Positions 1-14,075 are shown, counted from the first letter of the stretch. The stretch: DNA of 19,620 bases from Candidatus Eiseniibacteriota bacterium (GCA_023132135.1 JAGLYR010000099.1:1-19620), one strand, 5' to 3'. A program made the numbers and translations. Notes: generated from the letters alone by a model not told the origin.

Positions 1-854
1 TTGTTCTTCGCAAAGAGCCTCCTGGTAGCGGCCAGATTGAACTTCTTCGAGAACGGCGGCATGTTCTCCAGGACCGTCCAGCTTTTTGGATACACGGCAT
101 CCGCTCCCTCAAAAGCCTTTTCCATGTCGTACATCACCTCAAAGGATCCCCCGGAAGCTCTTGCATTTCGCTTGCAGGCCTTGACCACCTCCGGGTCCAG
201 ATCCAGCCCCTCCGGCTGGGCCTGAACCACCTCCATACCCATGAGAGTCGCTGCGATCACGGCGCTCTGTGGGACACTCATGGGCTTTTCCACACTCGGC
301 GAGTACGCCCACGACATCACGAACTTCTTCCCTTTGAACCCTCCCAGCTTCTCCTTGAGGGTAAGAATGTCCGCCAGGCCCTGGCATGGGTGGTACTTGT
401 CGCACTCCATGTTGATGATGGGAATGTCGGCCCATTTGGCGAACTCATTGATGATCAAGTTCGCCTTGCCATAGATCCATTCTACGGGGTCTCCGTACAT
501 CCGGATGGAAATTCCGTCCCCCATGTGAGACAGGGTGCGTGCAACATCCGACACCCGTTCGGTGGAGTAGGCCTTCTCATCCCCTTCCAGGGCAGGCGCG
601 TAGATTTTCCCCGGCTCGAGGAAGTGCGCGTGCCCGCCCAGCTGGGTCATACCCGCCTCGAAGCTGTTCCGTGTTCTGAGCGACTGGTTGTAGAAAATCA
701 TGAACAGCGACTTCGCATCCAGAAGCTTGTGCGGTTCACCCGTCGCGTACCTCCGCTTCAGATCCAAGGCCACATCCAGAATAGTCTCTACCTCTTCCCG
801 CGTGTAGTCCAGAAGAGTAATGAAATCCCGTCCCCGAAACCCCTGTGTAATCAT
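1..854 (-). CDS. ygeW: YgeW-type knotted carbamoyltransferase, C-terminus cut by window edge
   Basis: The first 284 residues are visible; the family is about 390-400 residues, so roughly the last quarter lies beyond the left edge. Seen: a carbamoyl-phosphate loop SLRTR (residues 58-62) followed by NSFEAGMTQLGGHA, and HPCQGLAD at 155-162, the HPxQ signature of aspartate/ornithine carbamoyltransferases. The SLRTR form and the long insert after GGHA resemble the knotted subgroup that holds YgeW and N-acetylornithine carbamoyltransferase. The ATG at 854 follows a strong GGGAGGA ribosome site 6 nt upstream. YgeW's natural substrate is not established to my knowledge; it is encoded in purine/urate degradation clusters, where it is thought to work toward carbamoyl phosphate. 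Being last in an operon with SsnA, HyuA and two purine-type hydroxylases fits that. N-acetylornithine carbamoyltransferase is the main alternative, but the context argues against it. Confidence 0.88.
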   Translation of the reverse strand, partial: MITQGFRGRDFITLLDYTREEVETILDVALDLKRRYATGEPHKLLDAKSLFMIFYNQSLRTRNSFEAGMTQLGGHAHFLEPGKIYAPALEGDEKAYSTERVSDVARTLSHMGDGISIRMYGDPVEWIYGKANLIINEFAKWADIPIINMECDKYHPCQGLADILTLKEKLGGFKGKKFVMSWAYSPSVEKPMSVPQSAVIAATLMGMEVVQAQPEGLDLDPEVVKACKRNARASGGSFEVMYDMEKAFEGADAVYPKSWTVLENMPPFSKKFNLAATRRLFAKN

Positions 855-865
855 TTCTTCCTCCC

Positions 866-892
866 ATCTGCGTAATCTGCGTAATCTGTGGT
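866..892. repeat. Three tandem copies of a 9-bp word (atctgcgta family)
   Basis: In the 59-nt gap between ssnA and ygeW the plus strand reads atctgcgta, atctgcgta, atctgtggt in direct succession. The same 9-bp word family recurs at 14180-14206 in the other main gap. On the transcribed strand the array ends directly upstream of the ygeW ribosome site. No open frame uses it. It looks like one of the short dispersed intergenic words seen in many environmental genomes; its function is unknown. Confidence 0.75.
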
Positions 893-913
893 TGTCTTTT
901 CTCTTTTGGCTTT

Positions 914-2248
914 CTACAACTTCTCCCACAGCTTCCCGGCAACTTCTTTGGAGCGCGCCAGGATTCTCTCCTCGTCGATCCCCAGCAGTTCTCCATCCTT
1001 CATCACCATCCGCCCGCCCACCATCACCGAGTCCACCGGAGTCCCGGCTATACCGAACAGGATGTGCCCAATCACATTCTCCGAATGCACCGGCGTCGGG
1101 GGCCGGTAATCCAGGACAATCAGGTCGGCAAATGCCCCCGCTTCCAGAACGCCGACCGGTCTCTCGAAAAACAGACCCGCTATCTTCGGATTGTTCCGGA
1201 AGAGAAGATCGCAAACCTCCACCGTTCCCACTCCCGGATCCCGCTTCACCAGCTTCTGCAGTATGTTGGCCACTCGCAGCTCGTCCAGGGGACTGGCGCT
1301 GAAGCCATCCGACCCCAACCCCACGGTTACTCCCCTCTCCAGCATCCCCGGAATGTCGGCGGTCCCCACAGCATTGTTGCAGTTGGACTGCGGATTGTGC
1401 ACCGCCTTGGTGCCGGTCTCCGCCAGTGTGTCCATGTCGTCCCCGTCCGTGTGGATGCAATGGATCGCGAGCGTGCGCCCACCCAGAATACCCAGATCGG
1501 CGAGCCTCCCCACGACGGACTTGCCCGAACGCCTGCGGGCGTCTTCGAGATCCGCTCGATCTTCCGCCACGTGAATGTGGAACCCGCTCCCGCCCGCCGC
1601 CTCTGCACACGCGGCAAGGGTCTCGTCCGAGAGCGTGAACGACGCGTGGAGCCCAAAGCTGGCCGCCAGGTTCTCCCGCTCCTCCCGCCGGCACCACTCG
1701 ATGAACGTTCGGTTCTCTTCGATGCCGGCCAAGGCGACTTCCCCGCCGTCCCGGTCGGACACCTCGTACGCGAGACACGCTCTCAGCCCTACCTGGTTCA
1801 CGGCTTCCGCTATCAGGGACAGGCTCCCCGTGCATCCGAATGGACTGGCGTGGTGATCGAAGAGAGTAGTTGTTCCATGCCGCAGGCAGTCGATCAGACC
1901 AACCATGCTGCTCATGTAGACACTCTCGTCATCCAGCAGCTTGTCCAGCTTCCACCAGACCCGTTCCAGGATCTCCAGGAAGTTGGACGGCGCCTCCGAA
2001 GTCAAGGGCATCCCCCGAGCCAGCGCGCTGTAAAGATGGGTGTGAGCGTTGATGAGACCCGGCATGATGAGCCGGTCGCCGAAGTCGATCCTGTTCACAT
2101 CCGGGTGCTCCTTTTCCAGCGCGGCCGACTCCCCGACCGCAACGATCCTGGATCCTTCCACAAGAACCGCCCCGGATGGAATCACGTCCCCGGCATGCCC
2201 CTGGGTAAGCAGCATCCCTCCCTGAACCAGCGTCTTCTCGCCTGCCAT
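914..2248 (-). CDS. ssnA: SsnA-type amidohydrolase (aminohydrolase)
   Basis: A 444-residue metal-dependent hydrolase of the ATZ/TRZ-like amidohydrolase superfamily, matching the usual SsnA length (about 440). Seen: the metal-binding pair NAHTHLY (H69, H71), FHIHVAED (H224, H226), AIHCIHTD (H263, H266), HNPQSNCNNAVG, and the metal aspartate in GLGSDG (D314). The AHTHLYSALARGM stretch and the NAVG stretch are typical of SsnA. The ATG at 2248 follows GCGAGAAAG; an ATG at 2263 (five residues more) has a poorer upstream site, and longer readings run into hyuA. It starts 22 nt after the hyuA stop. SsnA is encoded with YgeW and molybdenum hydroxylases in E. coli and in selenium-linked clusters, and is needed for anaerobic urate breakdown in gut bacteria. 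Its exact substrate is uncertain; deamination or ring hydrolysis of a purine breakdown product is inferred. A guanine deaminase-like enzyme is an alternative. Confidence 0.87.
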   Translation of the reverse strand: MAGEKTLVQGGMLLTQGHAGDVIPSGAVLVEGSRIVAVGESAALEKEHPDVNRIDFGDRLIMPGLINAHTHLYSALARGMPLTSEAPSNFLEILERVWWKLDKLLDDESVYMSSMVGLIDCLRHGTTTLFDHHASPFGCTGSLSLIAEAVNQVGLRACLAYEVSDRDGGEVALAGIEENRTFIEWCRREERENLAASFGLHASFTLSDETLAACAEAAGGSGFHIHVAEDRADLEDARRRSGKSVVGRLADLGILGGRTLAIHCIHTDGDDMDTLAETGTKAVHNPQSNCNNAVGTADIPGMLERGVTVGLGSDGFSASPLDELRVANILQKLVKRDPGVGTVEVCDLLFRNNPKIAGLFFERPVGVLEAGAFADLIVLDYRPPTPVHSENVIGHILFGIAGTPVDSVMVGGRMVMKDGELLGIDEERILARSKEVAGKLWEKL

Positions 2249-2270
2249 GGTCTTTCTCGCCATCCAGTTC

Positions 2271-3626
2271 TCAGCCCAGGTATCGGCCGTCGGCATCGCA
2301 ACCCAGGAAAACCCCGTTGTGGTACACGCGCCGCCCACGGAGGAACACCTGCGCGGGCCAGCCCTGCACCATTCTCCCTTCAAGGGGATTGAAATCGGTG
2401 TTCATGTGAAGGTCCGTCGCCGAAATCGTGATTTCCCTGCGCGGATCGAACACAACCAGGTCCGCATCACCACCAACCGCCACACGGCCCTTTGCAGGCG
2501 ACAGCCCGAAGATCCGGGCCGGATTCCCGCTCAACAGCTCCGCCAGTCGCTCCACCGGGAGTCCCCGCCTGACAACCCCCTCGGAGAACATCACCGGCAG
2601 CCGGGTCTCTACACCGGGAAGTCCCTTTGGCGCCTGCAGGAAATTGTCACGATACCGCATCTTGACTGACCGTGCAAAGGGACAGTGGTCCGTAGCCACC
2701 GTGTCGATCGTCCCATCGCGGATTCCTTCCCAGAGTGCCTCCATGTCTTCGAGCTTCTTCAGCGGCGGGTTCGCCAGGAACTGCACCCCATGTTCTTGCG
2801 CGTATACATCCTCAGTCAGGAGCAGGTAGTGCGGACATGTTTCGGCCCGAACCCGGACGCCTTTGGCTCTCCACTCCCGAATCCGCTCCAACCCCACCCG
2901 CGAGGAAACGTGAACAACGTACACCTCCGCACCCGTAGATTTGGCCGTACCGAGAACGATATCGATGGCTCTCGCTTCGATCTCCGCCGGCCGGGCCCGC
3001 GGGTGATGGACGGGCGCCAGATTCCCATGTGCGTTCAATTCCTCCTGCAACCGCCGGACCTCACCACCCTCCTCCGCATGAACCATGAGGAGTCCACCCG
3101 AGTCGGCCAGCACCTCGGCGAACCGGCGGAGCTCATTTTCTCCGACCTCTACCTCTCGATTGTCAAAGGCCATGTAGGTCTTGAAACTCCGCTGTCCAGC
3201 GTTGGCCATGTTCCGGATCTCGCCCAGACGTTCTATGTCGACTGCGCCCAGCTCCATGTGAAACCCGTAGTCGGCGCTCGTGCGACCGTCGGCTGCTCTG
3301 CGCCGCTCACGGAGTCGATCTTCGAGACTCCGATCCCGGTCGAAGAGAGCAAAATCCAGAAAAGAGGTCGTGCCACCGCACAGAGCGGCTTCCGATCCTG
3401 TCACGAAGGAATCGGATGACACGGCCTTGCCTGTCGGCAATTCGAAGTGGACATGGGGGTCGATCCCGCCAGGGAAAACATAGCAGCCGGACGCATCGAC
3501 CACGTCGGAGGCCCGGGCATCCGACTGGGAACCGACGGAGACGATTGTCCCGTCCTCAATACCGATGTCCGCAGGACGCGGTCCCTCCGGTGTGACAACG
3601 GTTCCATTTCTGATGATCAGATCCAT
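2271..3626 (-). CDS. hyuA: Dihydropyrimidinase/hydantoinase family cyclic amidohydrolase (HyuA-like)
   Basis: A 451-residue cyclic amidohydrolase close in length to E. coli HyuA and bacterial dihydropyrimidinases. Seen: the binuclear metal site DPHVHFE (H58, H60), the lysine expected to be carboxylated in SFKTYMAF (K149), VHAEEGG (H183), VVHVSS (H239) and VATDHCPF (D313). The family hydrolyses five- or six-membered cyclic amide rings (dihydropyrimidines, hydantoins, allantoin). The ATG at 3626 begins MDLIIRNG, the usual N-terminus; the reading frame stays open upstream to 3773, but that part is made of tandem words and the preA tail, so it is not taken as protein. It lies 58 nt after preA. 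With PreA just upstream, the pair looks like the reductive route (reduce a ring, then open it). Here the substrate may be a pyrimidine-like or hydantoin-like purine intermediate; that is inference. Confidence 0.9.
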   Translation of the reverse strand: MDLIIRNGTVVTPEGPRPADIGIEDGTIVSVGSQSDARASDVVDASGCYVFPGGIDPHVHFELPTGKAVSSDSFVTGSEAALCGGTTSFLDFALFDRDRSLEDRLRERRRAADGRTSADYGFHMELGAVDIERLGEIRNMANAGQRSFKTYMAFDNREVEVGENELRRFAEVLADSGGLLMVHAEEGGEVRRLQEELNAHGNLAPVHHPRARPAEIEARAIDIVLGTAKSTGAEVYVVHVSSRVGLERIREWRAKGVRVRAETCPHYLLLTEDVYAQEHGVQFLANPPLKKLEDMEALWEGIRDGTIDTVATDHCPFARSVKMRYRDNFLQAPKGLPGVETRLPVMFSEGVVRRGLPVERLAELLSGNPARIFGLSPAKGRVAVGGDADLVVFDPRREITISATDLHMNTDFNPLEGRMVQGWPAQVFLRGRRVYHNGVFLGCDADGRYLG

Positions 3627-3661
3627 AGTCCCTAGTCCCCAGTCCCGAGTCCCTAGTCCGA
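3627..3661. repeat. Five tandem copies of a 7-bp word (agtccct family) at the hyuA start
   Basis: The plus strand reads agtccct, agtcccc, agtcccg, agtccct, agtccga back to back, ending directly against the hyuA start codon. On the transcribed strand it is a run of GGGACT-type heptads, so the only Shine-Dalgarno-like sequences for hyuA (GGGGA and AGGGA) come from the repeat itself. The array fills more than half of the preA-hyuA gap. Confidence 0.85.
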
Positions 3662-3680
3662 GGAAAAGAGCATTGGAAGC

Positions 3681-3708
3681 GGTGCTACGTGCCCCGTGCA
3701 TCGTGCAT
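3681..3708. repeat. Four tandem copies of a 7-bp word (cgtgcat family) across the preA stop
   Basis: The plus strand reads ggtgcta, cgtgccc, cgtgcat, cgtgcat. On the transcribed strand the array encodes the last few codons of preA (HDARGT), its stop codon and the bases after it. It is a different word from the agtccct array 20 bp away, but has the same 7-bp period. Confidence 0.7.
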
Positions 3709-4893
3709 CTCAATACACCCATCGACAGGGCAAACCTGAACGCACAACCCGCAACCCACGCACCTCTCCTCATCGATCTCGGGGTAGCGATCCTTCTTCA
3801 GCTTGATTGCTCTGTGTCCACCGTCGTGGCACGCAACATGGCACCGATGGCATCGCTTGCACTGGTCTTCCAGGATCCTGAACACAATCCGGCGGCGGGG
3901 CAGCTCGTTGTGGGGCACAATATGCGGAAGCGCCAGGCCGACCAGATCCTCAGGCGACGCAAGCCCCTTGGAAACCAGATAGGCTTCCAGCCCCTCTCTC
4001 AGGCCGTCAATGATCCCGAACCCATGCCGCATCGGGGCCGTACAGTACTGTACCGTCCTGGCGCCTACAAGCAGGAACTCGGCGGCATCCCGCCAGTCGT
4101 GTGCACCGCCCGTACCGGTGATGGGAATGTCCACCCTGCGCGCGATTTCGGAGATCACGCGCAGAGTGATGGGCTTGATAGCCGGCCCCGACAGACCGCT
4201 GTACGAGGACTTGCCCCGCACACAGGGATTGGGGCAAAAGGTATCGAGATCAATTCCCATGAGTGACCGGACTGTGTTGGATGCGCAGACAGCATCCGCC
4301 CCACTGTCTTTCACTGCCTGGGCCACCTCCACGATATCTGCCACCATCGGGCTGATCTTTATGATGACCGGAACACTCTGCGCCGCACCCTTGATCCAGC
4401 CGGCAACCCGGCGCACCAGATCCGGATCCTGGGCCAGCATGGCGCCGGGTTTCGAACCAAGGGTCCCTTGCGGACATGAAAAACTGCACTCGATGAAATC
4501 GGCGCCGGCCTTTTCCAGCCGCCGGACGAGATGCTCCCAGTCCTCCCGCACCGCCCCCATGATGCTGGCCCCCACGATCTTTCCCGGGAACGAGCATTTG
4601 AGGGATTTCACCCATTTCTCGACCTCGTCGATATGGTGTTCGGAGATGAGATCGATGTTCCCAAGGCCGACTATTCTCTCACTACCCACATCGAGACTGC
4701 TCATCATCGGATAGGCAAGGCTGACCTCCTCCGTTTCCACGGATGTCGTCTTCAGAACCACACCCGCCCAACCGGCCTCGAATGCATCCCCGACCATATC
4801 CGGATCATCGGTGCATGGCGACGCGGCGAGTATGAAAGGGCTGTCAAATTCGAGACCGCAGAATCCTACGGAGAGCCTCACGTCACCAGCCAC
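3685..4893 (-). CDS. preA: PreA-like dihydropyrimidine dehydrogenase (FMN and 2x[4Fe-4S])
   Basis: A 402-residue protein, near the 411 of E. coli PreA. Seen: a dihydroorotate-dehydrogenase-like FMN barrel (about 1-320) with SFSCPQ (137-142), KISPMVADI (179-187), SNTV (205-208), SSYSGLSGPAIKPI (229-242) and TGTGGAHDWRDAAEFL, then two ferredoxin-type clusters, CxxCxxCxxxC at C345-C355 and at C378-C388. PreA normally pairs with the NADH-binding PreT; none is seen here. The loop that carries the catalytic cysteine in mammalian dihydropyrimidine dehydrogenase (ending CGQDP) reads MLAQDP here, with leucine (L153) in the cysteine position, so the substrate or mechanism may differ. The start is GTG at 4893, set by the ribosome site AAGGAAGGG seven bases upstream; upstream codons overlap the Fe-S gene in low-quality basic sequence. 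It overlaps the Fe-S gene by 11 nt. Reduction of a purine or pyrimidine ring is inferred from context. Confidence 0.88.
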   Translation of the reverse strand: MAGDVRLSVGFCGLEFDSPFILAASPCTDDPDMVGDAFEAGWAGVVLKTTSVETEEVSLAYPMMSSLDVGSERIVGLGNIDLISEHHIDEVEKWVKSLKCSFPGKIVGASIMGAVREDWEHLVRRLEKAGADFIECSFSCPQGTLGSKPGAMLAQDPDLVRRVAGWIKGAAQSVPVIIKISPMVADIVEVAQAVKDSGADAVCASNTVRSLMGIDLDTFCPNPCVRGKSSYSGLSGPAIKPITLRVISEIARRVDIPITGTGGAHDWRDAAEFLLVGARTVQYCTAPMRHGFGIIDGLREGLEAYLVSKGLASPEDLVGLALPHIVPHNELPRRRIVFRILEDQCKRCHRCHVACHDGGHRAIKLKKDRYPEIDEERCVGCGLCVQVCPVDGCIEMHDARGT

Positions 4894-5389
4894 AGTTTTT
4901 CCCTTCCTTCTTTTCCCGACTCTTCTCCTTCGCGGACGCTGCTGAGATCGCCTCCACGATCTGCTGGTACCCCGTGCACCTGCACAGGTTGCCTGAAATG
5001 GCAACCCGGATTTCCTCTTCCGTCGGGTCCGGGTTCCCATTCAGAAGCGCCTTGGCCGACATCAGCATCCCCGGGGTGCAGAACCCACACTGGACGGCGC
5101 CGTGCCGGATGAACATCTCCTGCAACGGATCCAGGACGCCGTCCTCCTGGAGACCTTCAACGGTGAGAATGTCCGCGCCGTCGACCTGCGCCGCCAGCAC
5201 AAGGCAGGCATTCACCGCCTCCCCGTTCATCACCACCGTGCACGCGCCGCACTCGCCCACCGCGCATCCACTCTTGGTCCCCGTGAGACCCAGACTCTCC
5301 CGCAACATATCGAGAAGCGTCAGATTCGCTTCACACTCGAGCCTGTGCTCGCGACCGTTGACGGTGCATTTTATTGCGACAACTTCCAT
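4883..5389 (-). CDS. Molybdenum hydroxylase 2, 2Fe-2S subunit
   Basis: A 168-residue small subunit of the xanthine dehydrogenase/CO dehydrogenase family. Seen: the plant-ferredoxin-type cluster GCAVGECGACTVVMNG (C42, C47, C50) with C62, then the second cluster AVQCGFCTPGM (C101, C104) and NLCRCTGY (C136, C138). It passes electrons from the molybdenum site to the FAD subunit in the cytoplasm. The ATG at 5389 is chosen because AAGGG lies 6 nt upstream and MEVVAIKCTVNG is a normal beginning; the ATG at 5413 would overlap the FAD gene. The C-terminal tail (about 153-168) is short and rich in lysine and glutamate. It is last of the Mo-FAD-FeS set (6267-8549, 5404-6270) and overlaps preA by 11 nt. 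The E. coli counterpart is called XdhC; no symbol is given because that name is also used for the maturation factor. Confidence 0.92.
   Translation of the reverse strand: MEVVAIKCTVNGREHRLECEANLTLLDMLRESLGLTGTKSGCAVGECGACTVVMNGEAVNACLVLAAQVDGADILTVEGLQEDGVLDPLQEMFIRHGAVQCGFCTPGMLMSAKALLNGNPDPTEEEIRVAISGNLCRCTGYQQIVEAISAASAKEKSREKKEGKNCGW
4901..4909 (-). promoter_or_regulatory. Ribosome binding site that fixes the GTG start of preA
   Basis: AAGGAAGGG on the minus strand, with a 7-nt spacer to the GTG at 4893. It lies inside the last codons of the upstream 2Fe-2S subunit gene (4883-5389), so the two genes are probably translationally coupled. Confidence 0.7.
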
Positions 5390-5403
5390 TTGCCGCCCTT
5401 TCG

Positions 5404-6270
5404 CTAGTCCCAACCCAGCGCTTCCCGCAGTGCTCGCCGGGTCAGCGCCTTCACCGCCGGCTCCTTGTACTCCGTCGACCAGCGGATGCCGGTTTCCTGA
5501 ATCATCTCGGCAGCCACATCCGTTGCTGAGGCGGCGAGTCGTTCGTCCGTCGGCACCGATCCCAGCAACCGGCCCTCAGCCTTCCGCATCCGGTGTGGCC
5601 TCGGCGTCACCGACCCGCACCCAATCCGCACGTCTACCAGATTCCCCTTCTCATCGGGCACCAGCACGACTGCGACGGCCATCCGCGCCTTGGCCGCCGC
5701 CTGCCGCCGGGCAAGGCGAACGTAGGAAGTCAGCGCGCCTGCCGGCAGTTTCGGGATCACGATGTCTGTGAGCAGCGCGTCGTGCGGGACGGTGGTCGAG
5801 TACGGTCCGTCGATGGTTTCCTCCACCGGGAGCAGGTGTTCGCCTTCCGTGGAAACAAAATGGAGTCTTGCATCCAGAGCAATCAGAGCCGGAACCGAAT
5901 CCGCGCATGGAGAAGCATTGCAGATGTTTCCGCCGATGGTTGCCCGATTCCGGACTTGCGGATTGCCCATCCGGGCTGCGGCTCCCGCCAGCGGAGACGC
6001 CAACTGCCGGACCAGCGGAGACAGCGCTATTTGCGCAAACGAGGCGAGGCTCCCAATGACCAGAGCCCTCTCCTCCTCCCGGATCTCGCCGAGGCCTGGA
6101 ATCGTCCCGATATCCAGGAGGATCACGTCCTCCTTCGGCTCAGCACCACGGAGGGAAACAATGAGATCCGTCCCACCTGCGAGAACGCGCGCCGAGGGTC
6201 CCAGGACCATCAATGCAGAGCAGGTTTCCTCAATGCTCCTCATTCGCCTGTACTTCAGGGGACGGATCAT
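5404..6270 (-). CDS. Molybdenum hydroxylase 2, FAD-binding subunit
   Basis: A 288-residue medium subunit (FAD-binding PCMH type, CoxM/XdhB-like), of the usual length for the family. Seen: the first FAD loop AGGTDLIVSLRG (31-42) and the second TIGGNICNASPCADSVPAL (101-119), followed by the C-terminal CO-dehydrogenase flavoprotein domain with RPHRMRKAEG. It accepts electrons from the Fe-S subunit and hands them to NAD+ or another acceptor. The start codon overlaps the stop of the Mo subunit in an ATGA (6267-6270), so translation is likely coupled. The Fe-S subunit starts 14 nt downstream. Confidence 0.92.
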   Translation of the reverse strand: MIRPLKYRRMRSIEETCSALMVLGPSARVLAGGTDLIVSLRGAEPKEDVILLDIGTIPGLGEIREEERALVIGSLASFAQIALSPLVRQLASPLAGAAARMGNPQVRNRATIGGNICNASPCADSVPALIALDARLHFVSTEGEHLLPVEETIDGPYSTTVPHDALLTDIVIPKLPAGALTSYVRLARRQAAAKARMAVAVVLVPDEKGNLVDVRIGCGSVTPRPHRMRKAEGRLLGSVPTDERLAASATDVAAEMIQETGIRWSTEYKEPAVKALTRRALREALGWD

Positions 6271-8549
6271 GTCCTCACCAGCTTCTTTCCCAGAAGCACG
6301 CGTTCCAGATTGGCCGGGAGATCCCGGACGCGTTGCCCGGTCGCATGACAGATGGCGTTGACAACGGCCGGGGCGGCAATTTCGGTTGTCGGTTCACCCA
6401 CGGATTTTGCGCCGTAGGGTCCATGCCGGTCGGGATTCTCCACCATCACGGCTTTCATCTGCGGCATATCCAGGGACGTGGGAATGAGGTACTCGTCGAA
6501 GTTCTCCGTCACCAGGCGCCCTTCGCGCTCCTCCACTTCTTCGAGAAGGCCATACCCCAACCCCATAGCCACTCCGCCGTATATCTGTCCCAGCACACCC
6601 TGGGGATTGACGACGCGCCCCACATCGTGCGCAGACACGAACTGGAGAACCCGTACCTCCCCTGTTTCCTGGTCCACCTCCACCTCCGCCATGTTGGTGC
6701 CGTAGACGTAGGTGAAGTAGGGACTGCCTCTTCCCCTTTGCTCATCCCAGTGAATGTCCGGACCCTTGTACCAGCCGAACTCGAAGAGGGCCACGCCCCG
6801 CTCGAAACAGGCCGCCGCCAGATCTCTGATCCTCATGCGACGCTGTCCGCCAGAGGACACCACCCACCCTCTCTCCAGATCCATGGATTTCGCCTTCGTC
6901 CTGAGAATCAGCCGCGCTTCGGCGAGCATTTTTCGGCGAACGCGCCCAGCGGCCCTGCGGGTGGCTGTCCCGCCCAGCATCGTGGACCGCGACGCCACCG
7001 ATGGCCCGCTGTCACTCATGATCGCAGTGTCGTAGGGTAGCACCGTGACATCCGCGAGATTGACCCCCAGAACCTCTGCCGTGATCTGCGCGATCACCGT
7101 GTAGTACCCCTGCCCCACCTCGGCGATCCCGGACCACACGATCACGCTCCCGTCTGTCTGGACGGATACGACAGCGCCCGCGGCGTCGGTTCCCTCCGCC
7201 CCCAGAGCGCACCCGCGGTAGCTGGCTGCCATCCCGATTCCCTTGCGCCTCCGCGCATTGCGGGGTTGGCCGTCCAGTTCCTCTCGGCGCCTTTTCCAAT
7301 TGATGGACCGTGCGCTTCGCTCCAGTGTCTCGATGAACGCCACGGGTTGGTCCAGCTTCTGTCCCGTGGCTGTCCGGGATCCGGTCCTGATGCCATTGAG
7401 AATCCGCAGATCCAGGGGATCCATTCCCAGTTCCCCGGCCAGCTCGTCCATCAGCAACTCGATTCCGAAGTTGCCCTGCGGTGAACCAAAACCGCGCATG
7501 GCCCCGGTGTAGACCGTGTTGGTGTAGACGCCGTAGGCATCCGCCTTCACGTGGGGCACCACGTAGGGCCCGGCGCACTGCACCACCGACCGCCAGACGA
7601 CAAAGGGGGTCGTCGTCGCGTACGCGCCCGCGTTGGCCACCATCCGGACCTCGAGAGCGGTGAGACGTCCGTTTTTCTTCGCACCGATCCTGTACTCCAT
7701 CACATACGGGTGCCGCTTGTAGCTCTCGTGGAACGACTCCTCCCGGCTGTTGACCATCTGCACGGGCCGCCCGGTCCGAAGCGCCAGCATGGCCGCCCTG
7801 GCCGCCAGCACCGTCATCACTTCGTCCTTCCCTCCAAAGGACCCTCCCACCGTAGTCTGAACCACGCGGATCTTGGCCAGTGGCAGCCGCAAGACTGTCG
7901 ACAGTCCCCGCCTCGTCGTGTACATGTTCTGAACGCAGCCCTCTACAAGAACGCCACCCTCCCCATCGGGGCGGGCCATGACCGCCTCGGGCTCGAGATA
8001 GGCGTGTTCGATGAGTGCGGTCGTATACGTGCGTCTGAGGATGACATCCGCACGCCGGAACCCGTCGGCAATCCGCCCCTTCCGCACCTTGTGATGGACA
8101 AAGATGTTGCTCTTGCCGTGGATCCCCGGGGCCCCCCGTTTCATCGCCTCCTCCGGCGAGAAGACGGCCGAAAGCGGTTCGAGTTGAACCCGGATTCCCG
8201 AGAGAGCCCGGGCGGCTTCCCTCGCCGACCGTGCGGCAACCACGGCAAGACCGTCTCCTCTGAACCGCACCTTGTCGTCCGCCAGCACCCGCTGGTTGGG
8301 AATCATCGTGCCGAAGCGATTGCGGCCGGGAACATCCGCGGCGGTCAGAACAGCTTCAACCCCCGGAAACGAGACCGCTTGGGAAACGTCGATGGATACG
8401 ACTCGGGCATGGGAAAGGGAAGCGCGAAGAACAGCCCCATAGAGCATGTGCGGATCCGCCAGGTCCGCAGCATACCGCGCCTGCCCCGTCACCTTTCCCA
8501 GCGCGTCCACACGCCGGACCTTCTTGCCGACAACCTTGAAATCCTTCAT
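6267..8549 (-). CDS. Molybdenum hydroxylase 2, molybdopterin-binding catalytic subunit
   Basis: A 760-residue large subunit of the xanthine dehydrogenase family, full length for the separate-subunit type. Seen: N-terminal VGKKVRRVDALGKVTGQARY (3-22), QTTVGGSFGGKDE with D242, VVWR with R320, GAMRGFGSPQ with R352, EVGQGYYTVIAQI, and the catalytic glutamate in AKSVGEPTTE (E719). Compared with bovine xanthine dehydrogenase, Q207, D242, R320 and R352 sit at the spacing of Gln767, Glu802, Arg880 and Arg912, so the purine-binding arginines are kept and one glutamate is aspartate. Aldehyde oxidases lose Glu802 and Arg880, so an aldehyde substrate is less likely. The start shares an ATGA with the stop of the upstream FAD gene (8546-8549). 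Hydroxylation of a purine or related N-heterocycle is inferred; the exact substrate is not readable from sequence. Confidence 0.92.
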   Translation of the reverse strand: MKDFKVVGKKVRRVDALGKVTGQARYAADLADPHMLYGAVLRASLSHARVVSIDVSQAVSFPGVEAVLTAADVPGRNRFGTMIPNQRVLADDKVRFRGDGLAVVAARSAREAARALSGIRVQLEPLSAVFSPEEAMKRGAPGIHGKSNIFVHHKVRKGRIADGFRRADVILRRTYTTALIEHAYLEPEAVMARPDGEGGVLVEGCVQNMYTTRRGLSTVLRLPLAKIRVVQTTVGGSFGGKDEVMTVLAARAAMLALRTGRPVQMVNSREESFHESYKRHPYVMEYRIGAKKNGRLTALEVRMVANAGAYATTTPFVVWRSVVQCAGPYVVPHVKADAYGVYTNTVYTGAMRGFGSPQGNFGIELLMDELAGELGMDPLDLRILNGIRTGSRTATGQKLDQPVAFIETLERSARSINWKRRREELDGQPRNARRRKGIGMAASYRGCALGAEGTDAAGAVVSVQTDGSVIVWSGIAEVGQGYYTVIAQITAEVLGVNLADVTVLPYDTAIMSDSGPSVASRSTMLGGTATRRAAGRVRRKMLAEARLILRTKAKSMDLERGWVVSSGGQRRMRIRDLAAACFERGVALFEFGWYKGPDIHWDEQRGRGSPYFTYVYGTNMAEVEVDQETGEVRVLQFVSAHDVGRVVNPQGVLGQIYGGVAMGLGYGLLEEVEEREGRLVTENFDEYLIPTSLDMPQMKAVMVENPDRHGPYGAKSVGEPTTEIAAPAVVNAICHATGQRVRDLPANLERVLLGKKLVRT

Positions 8550-9397
8550 TCCAGGAATCCCCTGAGTCCCCTGCCGAGGAGCACTCCCACCATCTCCCGG
8601 CGATATTCCTCGGTGGACCGGATATCCGCAATGGGTTTCGCTTCGGTCTGGATCATCTCAACGGCTTCCGAGATTACGGTTTCGCCCAGTTTCTTTCCTT
8701 CAAGGCAGGCAGCCGTTCGGGGAGCTCCACACACCGTCGGCGCAACAGCCCCCAGCGAGATCCTGACATCGCTCAACACTCCTCCATCCTCTGCGGCCAG
8801 GAACGCAACCGACACCTTCGCGATCGCCATGGCCCGCCGCTGCCCCAGCTTGAGATAGAACCAGCGAGAGCCCGGCCGCATCTTTGGAACGCGGATCCCA
8901 ACGAGGAGATCCGCGGGCAAGACACGCGTCACCCCGGGCGAGATACAGAAATCCCCCACGGGTATCTCCCGCGTGCCTTTCGAACTCCGTATCTCACACA
9001 CAGATCCCAGCACCCGGAGCGCGGGAACGGAATCCGAAGCCGGAGAGGCATGGCAAAGATTGCCCCCGATCGTCCCGCGACTGCGGATCTGTACGCTTCC
9101 CACTGTACCACAGGCTTCACTCAGAACGGGAATATGAGCTCCAACGATGGCTGATTCCACCACATCCGCGTGAGTCGCCAACGCGCCGATGCGGATTTCG
9201 GTCCCGTCGTCCACAATGCGGTTCAGATCCGGAATACGGCTGAGGTCCAGAAGCGCAACTGCGCCGTACGCGCCCCGGCGGATGCCGGGAATCACATCCG
9301 TGCCCCCTGCCAGCGGGAGCAGAGCCGTCCCGTGGTGTGCCTTCAGCGCCAGAGCTTCTTCCAGCGTCTCCGGAGCCAGGACCTCCAGGGTTCTCAT
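8546..9397 (-). CDS. Molybdenum hydroxylase 1, FAD-binding subunit
   Basis: A 283-residue CoxM/XdhB-like flavoprotein subunit. Seen: LAGGTDVIPGIRRG (29-42) and TIGGNLCHASPASDS (109-123), the two FAD-contact loops, and a C-terminal domain with RISLGAVAPTVCGAP. It is distinct in sequence from the other FAD subunit at 5404-6270. It lies between an XdhC-type maturation gene (9394-10209) and the second Mo subunit (6267-8549), with ATGA overlaps on both sides. Assignment to hydroxylase 1 rests on gene order: that set would otherwise have no FAD subunit, while set 2 has its own immediately after its Mo gene. Cross-pairing cannot be excluded. Confidence 0.9.
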   Translation of the reverse strand: MRTLEVLAPETLEEALALKAHHGTALLPLAGGTDVIPGIRRGAYGAVALLDLSRIPDLNRIVDDGTEIRIGALATHADVVESAIVGAHIPVLSEACGTVGSVQIRSRGTIGGNLCHASPASDSVPALRVLGSVCEIRSSKGTREIPVGDFCISPGVTRVLPADLLVGIRVPKMRPGSRWFYLKLGQRRAMAIAKVSVAFLAAEDGGVLSDVRISLGAVAPTVCGAPRTAACLEGKKLGETVISEAVEMIQTEAKPIADIRSTEEYRREMVGVLLGRGLRGFLE

Positions 9398-10209
9398 GCG
9401 TCGCCCTTCCCCTTGGCGCCCGACAGCTTGGCCGGCGTCTCCACACCGCGGCGGCTGGCAACCAGTTCCGCCACAATGCTCACCGCTATTTCCTCCGGGG
9501 TTTCCGCACCAATGTCCAGACCGATAGGGGAGTGGAGCTTCCTCATGACCTCCTCACCGAATCCGGCTTCCTTCAGATGGGAAATCAGCGTGGCTACTTT
9601 CCTTCGCGAGCCAATCATCCCGACGTATCGAAACGGGCTGTTGAGAACTGCCCGAACCACTTCTTCATCGTGCTTGTGTTCCGGAGTCAGGACAACGACA
9701 TAGGTATCGGGACCCGGGACTGTTTCCGCCGCTACCTCGGCAAACCCCCGGACAACGATATCATCTGCAAAGGGAAAGCGTTCCCGGTTCGCCTGCTCCG
9801 GCCGGGGATCGATCACGGTCACCGCAAAACCCACGCGCTTGGCCAGTTCCGCCAACGCGCGGGCAACGTGCCCCGCCCCGAAGATATGCAGTCTTTCGGC
9901 CGCCAGGAGAGGCTCGAGAAGAATCTCAATCTTTCCCCCGCACAGGGCCCCGGAATCCTTGCCCTCCCCCTCCAGGTCGTATTGCAGGGTTCTGGGCGCG
10001 CCGCTCTTGAGAACCGAGGCCGCTTGCTCGATCACCGCGGACTCGACAAATCCCCCCCCAATGGTTCCCCAGTTCCTCCCATCCGCGGCAATCACCATCT
10101 TCGCGCCAACTCCCCTCGGCGTGGATCCCTCTGTCCGGATCACCGTGGCAGCAACGGCGGGGATGCCTCGCCGGGCCAGATCTGCAATTCGCTCGTAGAC
10201 CTCTCTCAT
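9394..10209 (-). CDS. xdhC: XdhC/CoxI-family molybdenum hydroxylase maturation factor
   Basis: A 271-residue XdhC-type accessory protein. Seen: the N-terminal XdhC/CoxI domain with EGSTPRGVGAKM (27-38), GTIGGGFVE (48-56) and a conserved SGALCGG cysteine (C90), then a Rossmann-like domain with LHIFGAGHVARAL (107-119), MIGSRRK and the closing HSPIGLDIGAETPEEIAVSI. In Rhodobacter, XdhC binds molybdenum cofactor, helps add its terminal sulfur and inserts it into xanthine dehydrogenase. The ATG at 10209 overlaps the Fe-S gene stop as ATGA and begins the normal MREVYERIADL; the frame is open far upstream, but that is shadow of the Fe-S gene. It is the only such factor in the window although two hydroxylases are encoded. 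YqeB is related but about twice as long, so this is not YqeB. Confidence 0.92.
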   Translation of the reverse strand: MREVYERIADLARRGIPAVAATVIRTEGSTPRGVGAKMVIAADGRNWGTIGGGFVESAVIEQAASVLKSGAPRTLQYDLEGEGKDSGALCGGKIEILLEPLLAAERLHIFGAGHVARALAELAKRVGFAVTVIDPRPEQANRERFPFADDIVVRGFAEVAAETVPGPDTYVVVLTPEHKHDEEVVRAVLNSPFRYVGMIGSRRKVATLISHLKEAGFGEEVMRKLHSPIGLDIGAETPEEIAVSIVAELVASRRGVETPAKLSGAKGKGDA

Positions 10210-10685
10210 TGTTCCTCCGTGCGTGCGGCTACGCAGCCGGCTACACGCTCGATGGCTTGGAAGATCTTCCGGTACCCCGTACAGCGACACAGATTTCCCG
10301 TCACGGCCTCCACGATCTCGTCCCTGGAAGGATGCGGATTCCTGCTCAGCAGCGCGTACGCCGACATCAGGAACCCCGGGCTGCAGAAACCGCACTGAAC
10401 CGCGCCCGTGTCCACAAAAGCCTGCTGGAGAGCATGGAGTTCTCCATCGTCTGTCAAGCCTTCGATGGTCAGGACTTCCCGTCCCTCGACCTGCGACATC
10501 AAAACCAGGCAGGAGTTCACGGCCCGACCATCCAGGAGAACCGTGCACGCCCCACACTCGCCCTGCTCACACCCGATCTTGGTACCCGTGAGCCCCAGGT
10601 CCATCCTGAGGACATCCACCAGGCGCCTGCCGGGGTGAACCGTTACATTCACCGGCTTGCCGTTCACCGTCAAACAGATGTACAT
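10206..10685 (-). CDS. Molybdenum hydroxylase 1, 2Fe-2S subunit
   Basis: A 159-residue Fe-S subunit. Seen: IGCEQGECGACTVLLDG (C39, C44, C47) with C59, then VQCGFCSPGF (C98, C101) and NLCRCTGY (C133, C135): all eight ligands of the two [2Fe-2S] clusters. The ATG at 10685 gives the usual MYICLTVNGK beginning five bases after the Mo subunit stop; the ribosome site is weak (GAAG), as expected for coupled translation. The stop overlaps the start of the maturation factor gene (ATGA, 10206-10209). It carries electrons from the Mo centre of the product of 10691-12967 to the FAD subunit. Confidence 0.92.
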   Translation of the reverse strand: MYICLTVNGKPVNVTVHPGRRLVDVLRMDLGLTGTKIGCEQGECGACTVLLDGRAVNSCLVLMSQVEGREVLTIEGLTDDGELHALQQAFVDTGAVQCGFCSPGFLMSAYALLSRNPHPSRDEIVEAVTGNLCRCTGYRKIFQAIERVAGCVAARTEEQ

Positions 10686-10690
10686 TGGCT

Positions 10691-12967
10691 TCAGCGCTTC
10701 GATCGTTCCATCTCCTTCTTCAATCTCTCGGGGGTCAGGGGCAGTTCCCGGATGCGCAGGCCCGTTGCATGGTACACCGCGTTGGCGACGGCAGGGGCGA
10801 CTCCCATGAGCGGCTGCTCGGCGAATCCCTTGGCCCCATGGGGTCCCTTCGAGAATCTGGATTCGACGATGACGGGCGTGATCTCGGGCGCGTCGCTGGG
10901 CGTGGGAATAATGTAGGTCGAGAAATCGGGATTGATGATTCTGCCGTCCTTCCGCAGGACTTCCTCGGTCAGCGCGTAGCCCACTCCCTGGAGAGATCCA
11001 CCCTCGATCTGACCCTCTACCCCCACCGGATTGATGGCCCGGCCCACATCGTGGGCAGCCGTCAGGCGGACCAGGCGTACGACACCGGTTTCGAGATCCA
11101 CCTCGACTTCCGCAATGTTCGTCGCCCATGCGTACACCATGTAGGCGTCGCCCTGTCCCCGCTTCGGATCCCACGAGGTTTTCGGCGCCCGGAACCATCC
11201 CTGCGCCGCCAGGTGAACCCGCCGGGATATGCACTCCCGGGCAACATCCTCTACGGCAACCGACTTGTCCTGCTTCTGCCCCGCGTAGAGAACCCCGCCC
11301 TCCCCCAGCACGTCATGCAACGGGACCCCCAGGATAGACGCCCCCACACCCCAGAGGTTCTTCCGGACTCTGGCGCACGCGTCCCTGAGTGCGTTGCCGG
11401 ACATAATGGTCGCTCGCGAGGCCACGGTGGGACCGCTGTCGGGGACACGGGATGTGTCCGTCTCCGTGGCCGTGACCTGATCCAGGCGAAGACCCAGCTC
11501 CTCAGCCACGATCTGCGCCAGGACCGTGTGCATACCCTGTCCCATCTCGGTCGTTCCCACCGCATAGAGCGCGCTTCCATCCGCATGCACCTGAACAAAA
11601 GCGCCCGCGCGCGTCAGGTACGGCGAAAGACCGCCAAGACCAGCCCCGTAGTTGATCGTGGAGACACCTATGCCTTTCCGGACTGGTCCCCTGTCTTTTC
11701 CCCATCGAGCACGCTTCGTGCGGTAGTCAGAGGCCCGCGAGGCTTCCCGAATCGTCTGGAGCGACCCTACACTGGACCGGAGTTTCTGCCCTGTCGCCGT
11801 CTCGTCTCCGGTGCGGAGGATGTTGTGCTTTCGCAGCGCCAGGGGATCCATCCCCAGCTTCGCGGCCACCTCGTCCATCTGCGACTCGGCCGCGAACAGC
11901 ACCTGCGGGGCGCCGAAACCCCGGAAGGCGCCGCTGGGTTCCTTGTTGGTCGCCACCGCCCACGCGTCGACGCGGACGTTGGGACAACGGTAGGCCCCGG
12001 CGGCATGAACCGTTGCACGCCAGAGAACCACGGGACTGAGGGTACCGAAAGCTCCGCCGTCGTACGTCATCTGAACTTCCACGGCGACCAGGGTCCCATC
12101 TTCCTTCACCCCTGTCTTGTACCGGATGTGGGCCGGGTGACGCTTGCTCATGGAATGCATGTCTTCTTCGCGGTGGTAGACCAGCTTCACCGGCCGCCGG
12201 GTCTTCCATGCCAGCACAGCCGCCTGCCCCCCCACCTCCGAAGGAGCATCTTCTTTCCCACCGAATGCGCCCCCGGTAGTCGTCTGAACAATCCGCACTT
12301 TGCCCAAGGGAAGTCCGAGAATGTGCGCAATGGCGCGCTGGACGTAGAATGGGCACTGCATGGAACCGTAGACCACAATTCCGAGATCGGGAGTGGGAAC
12401 AGCGATCGCGCCTTGGGGTTCGAGGTACGCATGCTCCTGCGCAGGTGTGTGGTAGGTATTCTCCACCACCAGGAAAGCTTCCCGAAAACCCCTCTCCACA
12501 TCACCCCTCCGAACCACATGATGCCCGAAGGTGTTGTCCTCCCCGTACAATCCGGGTGCTCCAGGCAATCTCGCATCGAGTGGATCCAGGAGGGGAGTCC
12601 TGGGTTCGTACTCCACGCGTACCAATCCCGCAGCCAGATCGGCCGCCTCGCGCGTCTCCGCCCCCACCAGCCCCAGCGCCTGCCCACAGAAGTTCGTCTC
12701 TCCCGGAGCCAGTAGAGGATGGCCCGGAAGGATCAGGGGGATGTTGTTCCCGCCGGGAATGTCATCCGGCCCCGCAACGGCCACCACCCCAGGCAAGCTC
12801 AGGACAGACTCCAGATCCATCGAGAGAATCCGCGCCCGGGGTTCCGTGGAGCGCACCACTGCCGCGTACAACATCCCCGGGAAGGCAAGATCGTCGACAA
12901 ATCTAGCCTCACCCGTCACCTTCTCGCGCGCATCAACTCTTGGAACTCGCTGTCCGACGACACTCAT
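10691..12967 (-). CDS. Molybdenum hydroxylase 1, molybdopterin-binding catalytic subunit
   Basis: A 758-residue large subunit of the xanthine dehydrogenase family. Seen: GQRVPRVDAREKVTGEARF (5-23), QTTTGGAFGGKED with E239, VVLWR with R317, GAFRGFGAPQ with R349, TEMGQGMHTVLAQIVAEELG, and the catalytic glutamate in AKGFAEQP (E717). Q204, E239, R317 and R349 match Gln767, Glu802, Arg880 and Arg912 of bovine xanthine dehydrogenase in identity and spacing, so a purine substrate is likely. The catalytic loop reads AEQP rather than the common GEP. No in-frame TGA suggests selenocysteine; selenium-dependent members of this family carry labile selenium instead, which sequence cannot show. The ATG at 12967 overlaps the mocA stop as ATGA. 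It is clearly diverged from the second Mo subunit at 6267-8549, so the two sets are not a recent duplication. Confidence 0.92.
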   Translation of the reverse strand: MSVVGQRVPRVDAREKVTGEARFVDDLAFPGMLYAAVVRSTEPRARILSMDLESVLSLPGVVAVAGPDDIPGGNNIPLILPGHPLLAPGETNFCGQALGLVGAETREAADLAAGLVRVEYEPRTPLLDPLDARLPGAPGLYGEDNTFGHHVVRRGDVERGFREAFLVVENTYHTPAQEHAYLEPQGAIAVPTPDLGIVVYGSMQCPFYVQRAIAHILGLPLGKVRIVQTTTGGAFGGKEDAPSEVGGQAAVLAWKTRRPVKLVYHREEDMHSMSKRHPAHIRYKTGVKEDGTLVAVEVQMTYDGGAFGTLSPVVLWRATVHAAGAYRCPNVRVDAWAVATNKEPSGAFRGFGAPQVLFAAESQMDEVAAKLGMDPLALRKHNILRTGDETATGQKLRSSVGSLQTIREASRASDYRTKRARWGKDRGPVRKGIGVSTINYGAGLGGLSPYLTRAGAFVQVHADGSALYAVGTTEMGQGMHTVLAQIVAEELGLRLDQVTATETDTSRVPDSGPTVASRATIMSGNALRDACARVRKNLWGVGASILGVPLHDVLGEGGVLYAGQKQDKSVAVEDVARECISRRVHLAAQGWFRAPKTSWDPKRGQGDAYMVYAWATNIAEVEVDLETGVVRLVRLTAAHDVGRAINPVGVEGQIEGGSLQGVGYALTEEVLRKDGRIINPDFSTYIIPTPSDAPEITPVIVESRFSKGPHGAKGFAEQPLMGVAPAVANAVYHATGLRIRELPLTPERLKKEMERSKR

Positions 12968-13557
12968 TCACCCACGCCCCTTGCAACCCACCGGTGGTAA
13001 TCTTCCGGCGTGTCGATATCCGCACGCACTCCCTCGTCCTTCACCGGGATCTCCCGAACCGGGACAACGCCTCCGCTCACCACCCAACGCGCCCCCACAT
13101 CCAGCGGCGCCTCAAGAAACCGGCAGAAGTGCCCCGCCCCAAAAACGATGGGGTGCCCTCGTCGCCCCCCAACAGTTGGTATGACAATGTGTTCTGGTGT
13201 TTGCTTGAACGCTTCTATCAAGCTGCGATAGGTGGCCGCTTCGACAACGGGGTGATCAACCAGTGTCATTACCGCACCTTCCGCGCCCCGGATTGCCTCC
13301 AGACCGCACCAGAGGGAAGAGAGCTGTCCTCGCCTGTAGTCCTCGTTGACCGCCCATTCGATATCTCCCGGATCGGCCTCGCGCTGGATCTCCTCCTTGC
13401 CGGCCCCGATCACCGCCACCACCTTCCCGATACCCGCTTCTCTCATTCGCTCGCAGATAATCCTGACAAAGGTCCGTCCCTCAAATTCGAGAAGAGCCTT
13501 CGGTGTTCCCATCCGGCTGGATTCCCCTGCCGCCAGTATGATTCCTGCGAACTTCAT
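12964..13557 (-). CDS. mocA: MocA/YgfJ-type molybdenum cofactor nucleotidyltransferase
   Basis: A 197-residue MobA-like NTP transferase. Seen: the nucleotide-binding signature LAAGESSRMGTPK (8-20), the metal-site region TLVDHPVV (D101), GRRGHPIVF (131-139) and the closing DIDTPEDYHRW (180-190). MocA adds CMP to molybdopterin for enzymes of the xanthine dehydrogenase family; the YgfJ branch is encoded with selenium-linked hydroxylases. The ATG at 13557 shares an ATGA with the NTPase stop (13554-13557), and the stop overlaps the first Mo subunit (12964-12967), so cofactor processing and enzyme are made together. A general MobA is less likely because of this context. Confidence 0.88.
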   Translation of the reverse strand: MKFAGIILAAGESSRMGTPKALLEFEGRTFVRIICERMREAGIGKVVAVIGAGKEEIQREADPGDIEWAVNEDYRRGQLSSLWCGLEAIRGAEGAVMTLVDHPVVEAATYRSLIEAFKQTPEHIVIPTVGGRRGHPIVFGAGHFCRFLEAPLDVGARWVVSGGVVPVREIPVKDEGVRADIDTPEDYHRWVARGVGE

Positions 13558-14075
13558 GGTCTTCCGTCCCGCCCTGGTGGACTTTCCAGATTCCCGAGAA
13601 CCACGTCCACCAGGGAGTCCCGGTTCTCCTTCGAGACCTGCAGAACCACGACACCCGGATGCGAGCGCACCGCGTCCAGGAAGGCATTGCTCTCCGGCTT
13701 GATGACTCCCAGGACCGGCTTGCCCGAGTCGAGAGCCTCGAAGACGGCCCGCTGGAACTTCCGGGCACCCAGCTCCATCCTCCCCAGCTCGTCGAGGAGA
13801 ACCAGATCCGCCCCGTCCATCGCCCTGCGGATCGCTTCCACCCCCGCTTTCTCGAAGACCTCGGTATCCACGTCCATACCCTCTGGACACCGGCGCGCAA
13901 ATTCAAACTCTGCCCCGGTAATGCAATCGATGAGGACAAAACGCCGCCGGCCCGGATCCACATCCACCCGTTGGGTCCGGATTCCACCCACGGAGAAAGG
14001 CAGATTTTCCAGAACCCGCCGGATCACCGTGCTCTTGCCGATCCGCACCGGTCCGGTGAGGAAGATCTTCGCCAT
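13554..14075 (-). CDS. THEP1-like nucleoside-triphosphatase
   Basis: A 173-residue P-loop NTPase similar in size to the THEP1 (Aq_1292) family. Seen: Walker A GPVRIGKST (8-16), GGIRTQ (30-35) and Walker B with the following glutamate LVLLDELGRMEL (91-102), all typical of THEP1, which hydrolyses ATP, GTP and other NTPs in vitro. Its in vivo role is unclear. It is the first gene of the hydroxylase operon and overlaps mocA by 4 nt, so a role in cofactor handling or enzyme maturation is a reasonable inference. The ATG at 14075 has GGGAG nine bases upstream and starts directly with MAKIFLTG, leaving no room for a longer N-terminus before the P-loop. Confidence 0.85.
   Translation of the reverse strand: MAKIFLTGPVRIGKSTVIRRVLENLPFSVGGIRTQRVDVDPGRRRFVLIDCITGAEFEFARRCPEGMDVDTEVFEKAGVEAIRRAMDGADLVLLDELGRMELGARKFQRAVFEALDSGKPVLGVIKPESNAFLDAVRSHPGVVVLQVSKENRDSLVDVVLGNLESPPGRDGRP

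Follow-up and report, generated by a model that had tools for sequence, protein, structure and literature searches.

Gene content of the window

The window (the whole stretch of DNA analysed, 19,620 nucleotides) was one entire contig, C345, of the 3.4-Mb draft genome G000 (345 contigs, 96% complete). Profile scans of the window identified 13 tightly packed genes, all on the minus strand and running from position 14075 to 1 (Table 1). Adjacent genes of this unit overlapped, mostly by a few bases, or were separated by no more than 61 bases, as with the gaps ahead of HyuA (61 bases) and ahead of the carbamoyltransferase OTC_A (59 bases). A THEP1-like NTPase gene headed this operon. SsnA, PreA, and HyuA each passed their curated cut-offs, and two complete three-subunit hydroxylases of the xanthine dehydrogenase (XDH) type were placed around an XdhC-type factor, the true start of which was probably near 10209. 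A large secreted C25 (gingipain-type) peptidase gene with a propeptide, FG-GAP repeats, and a Por secretion tail (14248-19305) lay outside the unit and was unrelated to it.

Table 1. Genes of the unit identified in the window
Feature	Coordinates	Strand	Evidence
THEP1-like NTPase, first gene of unit	13554..14075	-	PF03266, 124.5 bits; overlaps next gene
MocA-like molybdenum cofactor cytidylyltransferase	12964..13560	-	PF12804; TIGR03310, 141 bits (below cut-off 186)
Molybdenum hydroxylase large subunit 1	10691..12967	-	MoCoBD domains; pucD, 559 bits; GGAFGGKE; motif alignment, tree
Hydroxylase 1 2Fe-2S subunit	10206..10700	-	Profile scans
XdhC/CoxI-type hydroxylase maturation factor	9394..10287	-	PF13478, PF02625; NF045664, 279.7 bits
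Hydroxylase 1 FAD subunit	8546..9397	-	PF00941, PF03450
Molybdenum hydroxylase large subunit 2, D-type	6267..8549	-	GGSFGGKD / WRSVVQ; profile scans, tree
Hydroxylase 2 FAD subunit	5404..6270	-	Profile scans
Hydroxylase 2 2Fe-2S subunit	4883..5413	-	Profile scans
PreA-like protein, predicted yanthine reductase	3685..4911	-	NF006183, 436.8 bits (cut-off 335); PF01180, PF14697
HyuA/dihydropyrimidinase, cyclic amidohydrolase, predicted to convert ureidomethyl-hydantoin (UMH) to 2,3-diureidopropionate (DUPA)	2271..3623	-	TIGR02033, 438.1 (cut-off 393.25)
SsnA aminohydrolase, predicted dihydro-yanthine ring opening	914..2272	-	NF005540, 530.4 (cut-off 444); TIGR03314, 504.5 (cut-off 455.5)
OTC_A, YgeW-like carbamoyltransferase, cut by contig end	1..854	-	PF02729/PF00185; YgeW-type motifs

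The original prediction had described an operon of SsnA, HyuA, YgeW-like, MocA, and XDH-type genes with two full hydroxylases and with a PreA-like protein where E. coli has YgfK, and all of this was borne out by the profile scans (the PreA-like protein being the PF01180 protein). A YgfK gene elsewhere in the operon, named there as evidence that would speak against it, was rejected: the whole G000 assembly gave no above-cut-off match to YgfK (TIGR03315), and the partial sub-cut-off matches covered, where long, only its GltD/FAD region.

Large subunits of the hydroxylases

In the motif alignment (bovine numbering), both large subunits had Arg at the position of R880, and that of E802 was acidic in both (E in subunit 1 and D in subunit 2); in XdhA and XdhD of E. 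coli it was Gln. Subunit 2 grouped, in a supported clade (SH-aLRT 99), with subunits encoded at the SsnA loci L058, L092, L099, L102, and L131. Large subunits of E-type and D-type both adjoined SsnA elsewhere.

PreA-like protein

The PreA-like protein was composed of an FMN TIM barrel plus a C-terminal two-[4Fe-4S] domain in which all eight Cys were kept, and it contained no FAD/NADH domain. Its best PDB match was pig DPD (E 2.3e-67), and on pig DPD numbering it kept N609, C671, N736, and T737 and carried the substitutions E611D and N668S, at two positions that line the pyrimidine site in the published complex. A residue comparison was applied to 25 proteins, with labels taken from gene neighbourhood and residues from sequence, and it displayed three profiles: (i) E611/N668 in 7/7 PreA proteins unlinked to SsnA (E. 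coli, plasmids, and the second copy of the relative G001); (ii) D611/S668 plus the kept Cys in 13/13 SsnA-linked PreA or fused PreTA proteins, that of the window included; and (iii) E611 plus a shortened catalytic loop without Cys in 5/5 UacX-type proteins, a set that excluded C. difficile UacX itself. Because labels and residues come from different sources, the agreement between them is informative, but the fused proteins form a single clade and represent few independent events.

In the tree, the UacX-type clade stood apart at 100/100 with the window's PreA outside it and nearer to the PreA than to the UacX examples, and the placement of the latter protein relative to the fused PreTA clade hung on long branches. 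A grouping with UacX was disfavoured by this tree and by the kept Cys loop, although forcing the window's PreA into the UacX clade (p-AU 0.062) was not formally rejected. The closest PreA found was that of G003 (54% identical, with PreT beside it); this PreA (L046, 3253-4440) had lost one Cys in its first C-terminal 4Fe-4S motif (CLRDGRC).

From its residues and neighbourhood, the window's PreA is probably a reductase of yanthine (2,8-dioxopurine) and not of uracil. It is unlikely that PreA and HyuA make up a reductive uracil pathway that merely lies beside purine genes, with the carbamoyltransferases decarbamoylating N-carbamoyl-beta-alanine. Both proteins did exceed the PreA and dihydropyrimidinase equivalog cut-offs, scores that would equally suit uracil, and the same adjacency was present in plasmid clusters with PreT-PreA-HydA and in Pusillibacter faecalis (PreA-amidohydrolase-carbamoyltransferase, carbamate kinase downstream); however, the window had D and S instead of E and N at the two discriminating positions, its PreA had no adjoining PreT, its SsnA gene overlapped the HyuA gene, and G001 harbored, besides its SsnA-linked PreTA, another PreT-PreA that was of E/N type and accompanied by beta-alanine genes.

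Two pyrimidine clusters were seen in the course of these comparisons. The region L042 (6146-20000), together with L172, in G001 contained PreA, PreT, aminotransferase, HyuA, nitrilase, and methylmalonate-semialdehyde dehydrogenase genes, making up a reductive pyrimidine cluster, and it adjoined carbamate kinase plus tandem carbamoyltransferases. Plasmid pMM59_01 of P. faecalis (L190, 9971-21167) carried consecutive genes for a stand-alone pyrimidine-type PreA (N668), an amidohydrolase, and a carbamoyltransferase, and genes for a cytosine permease, a nitrilase, and carbamate kinase lay downstream; in this region the reductive pyrimidine pathway may end in a phosphorolytic step that yields ATP.

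Fused PreT-PreA proteins (about 820-910 aa, mammalian DPD domain order) were encoded directly before SsnA in L058, L064, L068-L072, L076, L128, L061 (the locus of G001, with identical PreT), and L044, which came from Verrucomicrobiota, Elusimicrobia, UBP16, and relatives of the window; these proteins are probably NAD(P)H-dependent yanthine reductases of a third architecture. Among 80 named SsnA loci sampled, YgfK was found in 31, fused PreTA in 10, and a stand-alone PreA/UacX-like gene in five, the last count including L061, in which the extra copy was of pyrimidine type.

Electron donor of the PreA-like protein

The neighbours of the window's PreA were an XDH 2Fe-2S subunit and HyuA, with no PreT nearby. 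PreT-like sequences of G000 matched at 33-36% identity and lay inside longer proteins (PRK12778-like, HdrA/GltD-like, and Fdh/Nuo-like), none of them near PreA, and the apparent flavoprotein next to the sole NCS2 permease (C307) proved to be a thioredoxin reductase. PydAc has no FAD domain and is ferredoxin-dependent (PMC7332683), and UacX is likewise without an FAD domain, with ferredoxin use proposed (PMC12507026). By analogy with these two enzymes, ferredoxin is the favoured donor for the window's PreA, and the same analogy counts against an NAD(P)H-dependent reductase working with a PreT-like partner in trans, i.e., a split PreTA instead of a UacX-like ferredoxin enzyme. Such an enzyme is a doubtful but substantial possibility: PreT adjoined the closest PreA, fused PreT-PreA occurred next to SsnA in relatives and other phyla, and GltD/NfnB-type flavoproteins were present in G000, while the PreT-like matches of G000 were parts of other protein types away from PreA.

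Contig C344 and the two carbamoyltransferases

A genome search with a related carbamoyltransferase identified a headless 39-residue OTC C-terminal tail right where contig C344 ends; it was followed on one strand by OTC_B (350 aa), a carbamate kinase that exceeded its cut-off (TIGR00746, 375 bits), and a PALP protein. Besides ArgF and PyrB, G000 contained as carbamoyltransferases only the N-terminal part of OTC_A, the C344 tail, and OTC_B. About 26 codons were absent between the tail and the OTC_A of C345, and the tail was without a short stretch present in OTC_A of relatives. We infer that C344 and C345 are very likely adjacent, because relatives show the tandem order OTC_A-OTC_B: this tandem was found in 5/7 relatives, and G002 and G006 each had one of the pair at a contig end. 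Carbamate kinase and a candidate YgeX-like PALP lyase, both expected by the original prediction to the left of position 1, were located on this presumed next contig, while YgeY, also expected there, was missing from the assembly, and the single carbamoyltransferase of that prediction turned out to be two.

The truncated OTC_A had its best NCBIfam score with N-acetylornithine carbamoyltransferase (219.5; YgeW 165/153), all below cut-off; it carried the YgeW knot-region motif WAYSPS..KP.SVPQ plus YPKSW, and its orthologues in relatives were 63-68% identical. OTC_B had no YgeW-type motifs, with HPMP at the place of YgeW's HCLP; its best score, also below cut-off, was with N-acetylornithine carbamoyltransferase, and among the matches listed, its best plasmid relatives had no more than about 38% identity. 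G000 also encoded ArgF separately, with a score above the ArgF cut-off.

The PALP protein of C344 was of threonine-synthase type (25% identity to E. coli YgeX), and it was the only match to the PALP query across G000, and therefore it may be the biosynthetic threonine synthase. Threonine-synthase-like PALP genes were found near 27/80 SsnA loci (e.g., L057, L065, L083, and L130) and YgeX proper in 6, making the former the usual lyase candidate near SsnA in the 80-locus sample.

YgeY and gene order in related genomes

In the known pathway, one ureido group of DUPA is taken by YgeW or UacY and the other by the M20 hydrolase YgeY (PMC12507026), and the order of the two removals is disputed (PMC12990295). 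Eight genomes of the window's phylum (G000-G007) were compared, and SsnA was present in 8/8. YgeY scored >410 bits in G001-G006, and no YgeY was found in G000 (96% complete draft, two queries) or in G007 (also a draft). No ureidase-like M20 protein was identified in G000, where the two strongest of five PF01546 matches were PepT and a dipeptidase and the other three were weaker.

The related genomes displayed different arrangements: (i) in G007, OTC_A-OTC_B-carbamate kinase-fused PreTA of the SsnA-linked type; (ii) in G003, PreT-PreA together with genes for a peptidase, HyuA, SsnA, a PALP protein, and maturation factors and, farther along, those for YgeY and carbamate kinase; and (iii) in G001, G005, and G006, fused PreT-PreA adjoining SsnA. 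G000 and G007, the two YgeY-less genomes among the eight, were also the only ones in which the OTC pair shared an operon with carbamate kinase and a reductase of the SsnA-linked type. OTC_B and the tandem pair also occurred in YgeY-bearing relatives, mostly away from SsnA, and in some of these OTC_B was apart from carbamate kinase.

Proposed pathway

An anaerobic reductive urate pathway is the best reading of the operon and a likely one: SsnA, the marker enzyme of that pathway, was encoded in a packed unit with PreA, HyuA, YgeW-like, and XDH genes, and the enzymes encoded correspond to the pathway demonstrated in vitro with E. coli and C. difficile (PMC12507026). One hydroxylase (either of the two) would convert hypoxanthine/xanthine into urate, and the other, acting as a dehydroxylase, would convert urate into yanthine. 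Yanthine would be dearomatised at the FMN of the PreA-like protein, with electrons supplied by reduced ferredoxin or an unlinked NAD(P)H partner and passed along the two C-terminal [4Fe-4S] clusters. SsnA would open the reduced yanthine ring to give UMH, and HyuA would open the hydantoin to give DUPA. The YgeW-like OTC_A would remove one ureido group by phosphorolysis, and OTC_B would probably remove the other likewise, since YgeY is missing; carbamate kinase would use the carbamoyl phosphate to form ATP, and the candidate PALP lyase would split diaminopropionate into pyruvate and ammonia.

Removal of both ureido groups by phosphorolysis is suggested by the two YgeY-less genomes, the only two of their kind, in which the OTC pair was operonic with carbamate kinase and an SsnA-linked reductase, and we consider it somewhat short of an even chance. 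Gene neighbourhoods suggest that OTC_B may act on beta-ureido groups and stand in for YgeY, because the OTC pair plus carbamate kinase of G001 adjoined a pyrimidine cluster, the product of which is 3-ureidopropionate (a beta-ureido compound), and because in P. faecalis a carbamoyltransferase and carbamate kinase accompany a PreA of the pyrimidine type. Against a replacement of YgeY, the YgeY-bearing relatives keep OTC_B, and YgeY was absent in two genomes only, both drafts. Hydrolysis of the second ureido group by an unrecognised enzyme, with OTC_B serving other metabolism (e.g., of citrulline- or N-acyl-ornithine-type), is quite conceivable, though not to be expected with confidence: it agrees with the best (below cut-off) score of OTC_B and with its conservation in YgeY-bearing relatives, in some away from carbamate kinase, but in both YgeY-less genomes OTC_B was operonic with carbamate kinase plus reductase or SsnA, and G000 had its separate ArgF over cut-off. 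Two-fold phosphorolysis, if true, would be a more energy-saving removal of the last two urea groups; a search of an open-access library yielded no paper describing a reductive urate pathway with two carbamoyltransferases.

The joint proposal is that tandem carbamoyltransferases phosphorolyse both ureido groups, dispensing with YgeY and yielding two ATP per urate via carbamate kinase, and that the PreA lineage supplied the yanthine reductase in a recruitment independent of UacX and YgfK, in a little-sampled phylum. Taken as a whole, it is put forward tentatively, as rather doubtful.

Comparison with known systems

The reductive urate pathway was established in 2025 (Li 2025, PMC12507026), and its listed occurrence covers six phyla, chiefly in a gut context. 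Of the features used there to recognise clusters, G000 had SsnA, an XdhA/XdhD-type hydroxylase, a PF01180 yanthine-reductase candidate, HyuA, and a PF00185 protein with YgeW motifs (the truncated OTC_A scoring below the curated YgeW cut-off), and it had no YgeY. The window's PreA resembled UacX in having FMN and 4Fe-4S without an FAD domain beside SsnA, and it was outside the UacX sequence clade and had no shortened loop; as for PreA proper, it exceeded the equivalog score, and it had neither E611/N668 nor an adjoining PreT. The original suggestion that the route may be undescribed in the window's phylum, for which eight genomes were compared, is plausible; SsnA loci were also found in Acidobacteriota, Verrucomicrobiota, Bipolaricaulota, and Ignavibacteriota, phyla unlisted in PMC12507026. 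The reductive purine/urate interpretation stood as the best reading, whereas the replacement of YgfK was not new, UacX (PMC12507026) and X1 (PMC4016543) having been published already.

The C. difficile UacX cluster, in which UacX replaces YgfK and yanthine to UMH conversion was shown in a coupled assay (PMC12507026), and the related L189 shared with the window SsnA, HyuA, an XDH-type hydroxylase, and an FAD-domain-free FMN/4Fe-4S protein in place of YgfK. The C. difficile cluster handles the ureido groups via UacY and YgeY, while the window's system had carbamate kinase together with a pair of carbamoyltransferases; the UacX-type proteins compared had E611 and a deleted catalytic-Cys loop, while the window's PreA had D611 and kept the Cys. 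L189 itself, from a large plasmid of the fish-associated Fusobacteriota species Cetobacterium somerae, harbored a complete UacX/UacY-type urate cluster at 2043-20593 (dpaL, YgeY, D-aminoacylase, SsnA, UacX, XDH, permeases, and HyuA).

The E. coli cluster shared SsnA, HyuA, a YgeW-like carbamoyltransferase, carbamate kinase, MocA, an XdhC/YqeB-type factor, and a PALP lyase (a candidate one in G000) with the window's system, but it displayed five differences: (i) YgfK instead of PreA; (ii) presence of YgeY; (iii) no second carbamoyltransferase; (iv) XdhD-YgfM instead of two three-subunit hydroxylases; and (v) YgeX instead of a threonine-synthase-like candidate lyase.

The reductive pyrimidine pathway (PreTA/PydA plus dihydropyrimidinase, and PydAc; PMC7332683) shared the FMN domain, the two C-terminal [4Fe-4S] clusters, and an adjoining cyclic amidohydrolase, but it had E611/N668 where the window had D and S, and the window had SsnA and purine hydroxylases in the unit and no PreT alongside. 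Databases would call the window's PreA a pyrimidine enzyme; the D611/S668 signature sets apart those PreA-lineage proteins that are likely yanthine reductases from the uracil reductases bearing the same annotation, and by this signature other 'PreA' or 'DPD-like' proteins linked to SsnA may be misannotated too.

Barba 2013 reported a DPD-family 'dehydrogenase X1' beside hyuA, ygeW, ygeY, ssnA, and xdh genes (PMC4016543). The X1 neighbourhoods shared with the window's system such a DHOD/DPD-family protein, these companion genes, and carbamate kinase, but X1 diverges before the PreA/PydA group while the window's protein lay on the PreA side. The PreA-for-YgfK swap is thus known in kind from UacX and X1 and different in lineage, and the new element, with a candidate function, is a carbamoyltransferase pair in a genome lacking YgeY. 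The operon places a probable, rearranged version of the reductive urate pathway in an uncultured lineage.
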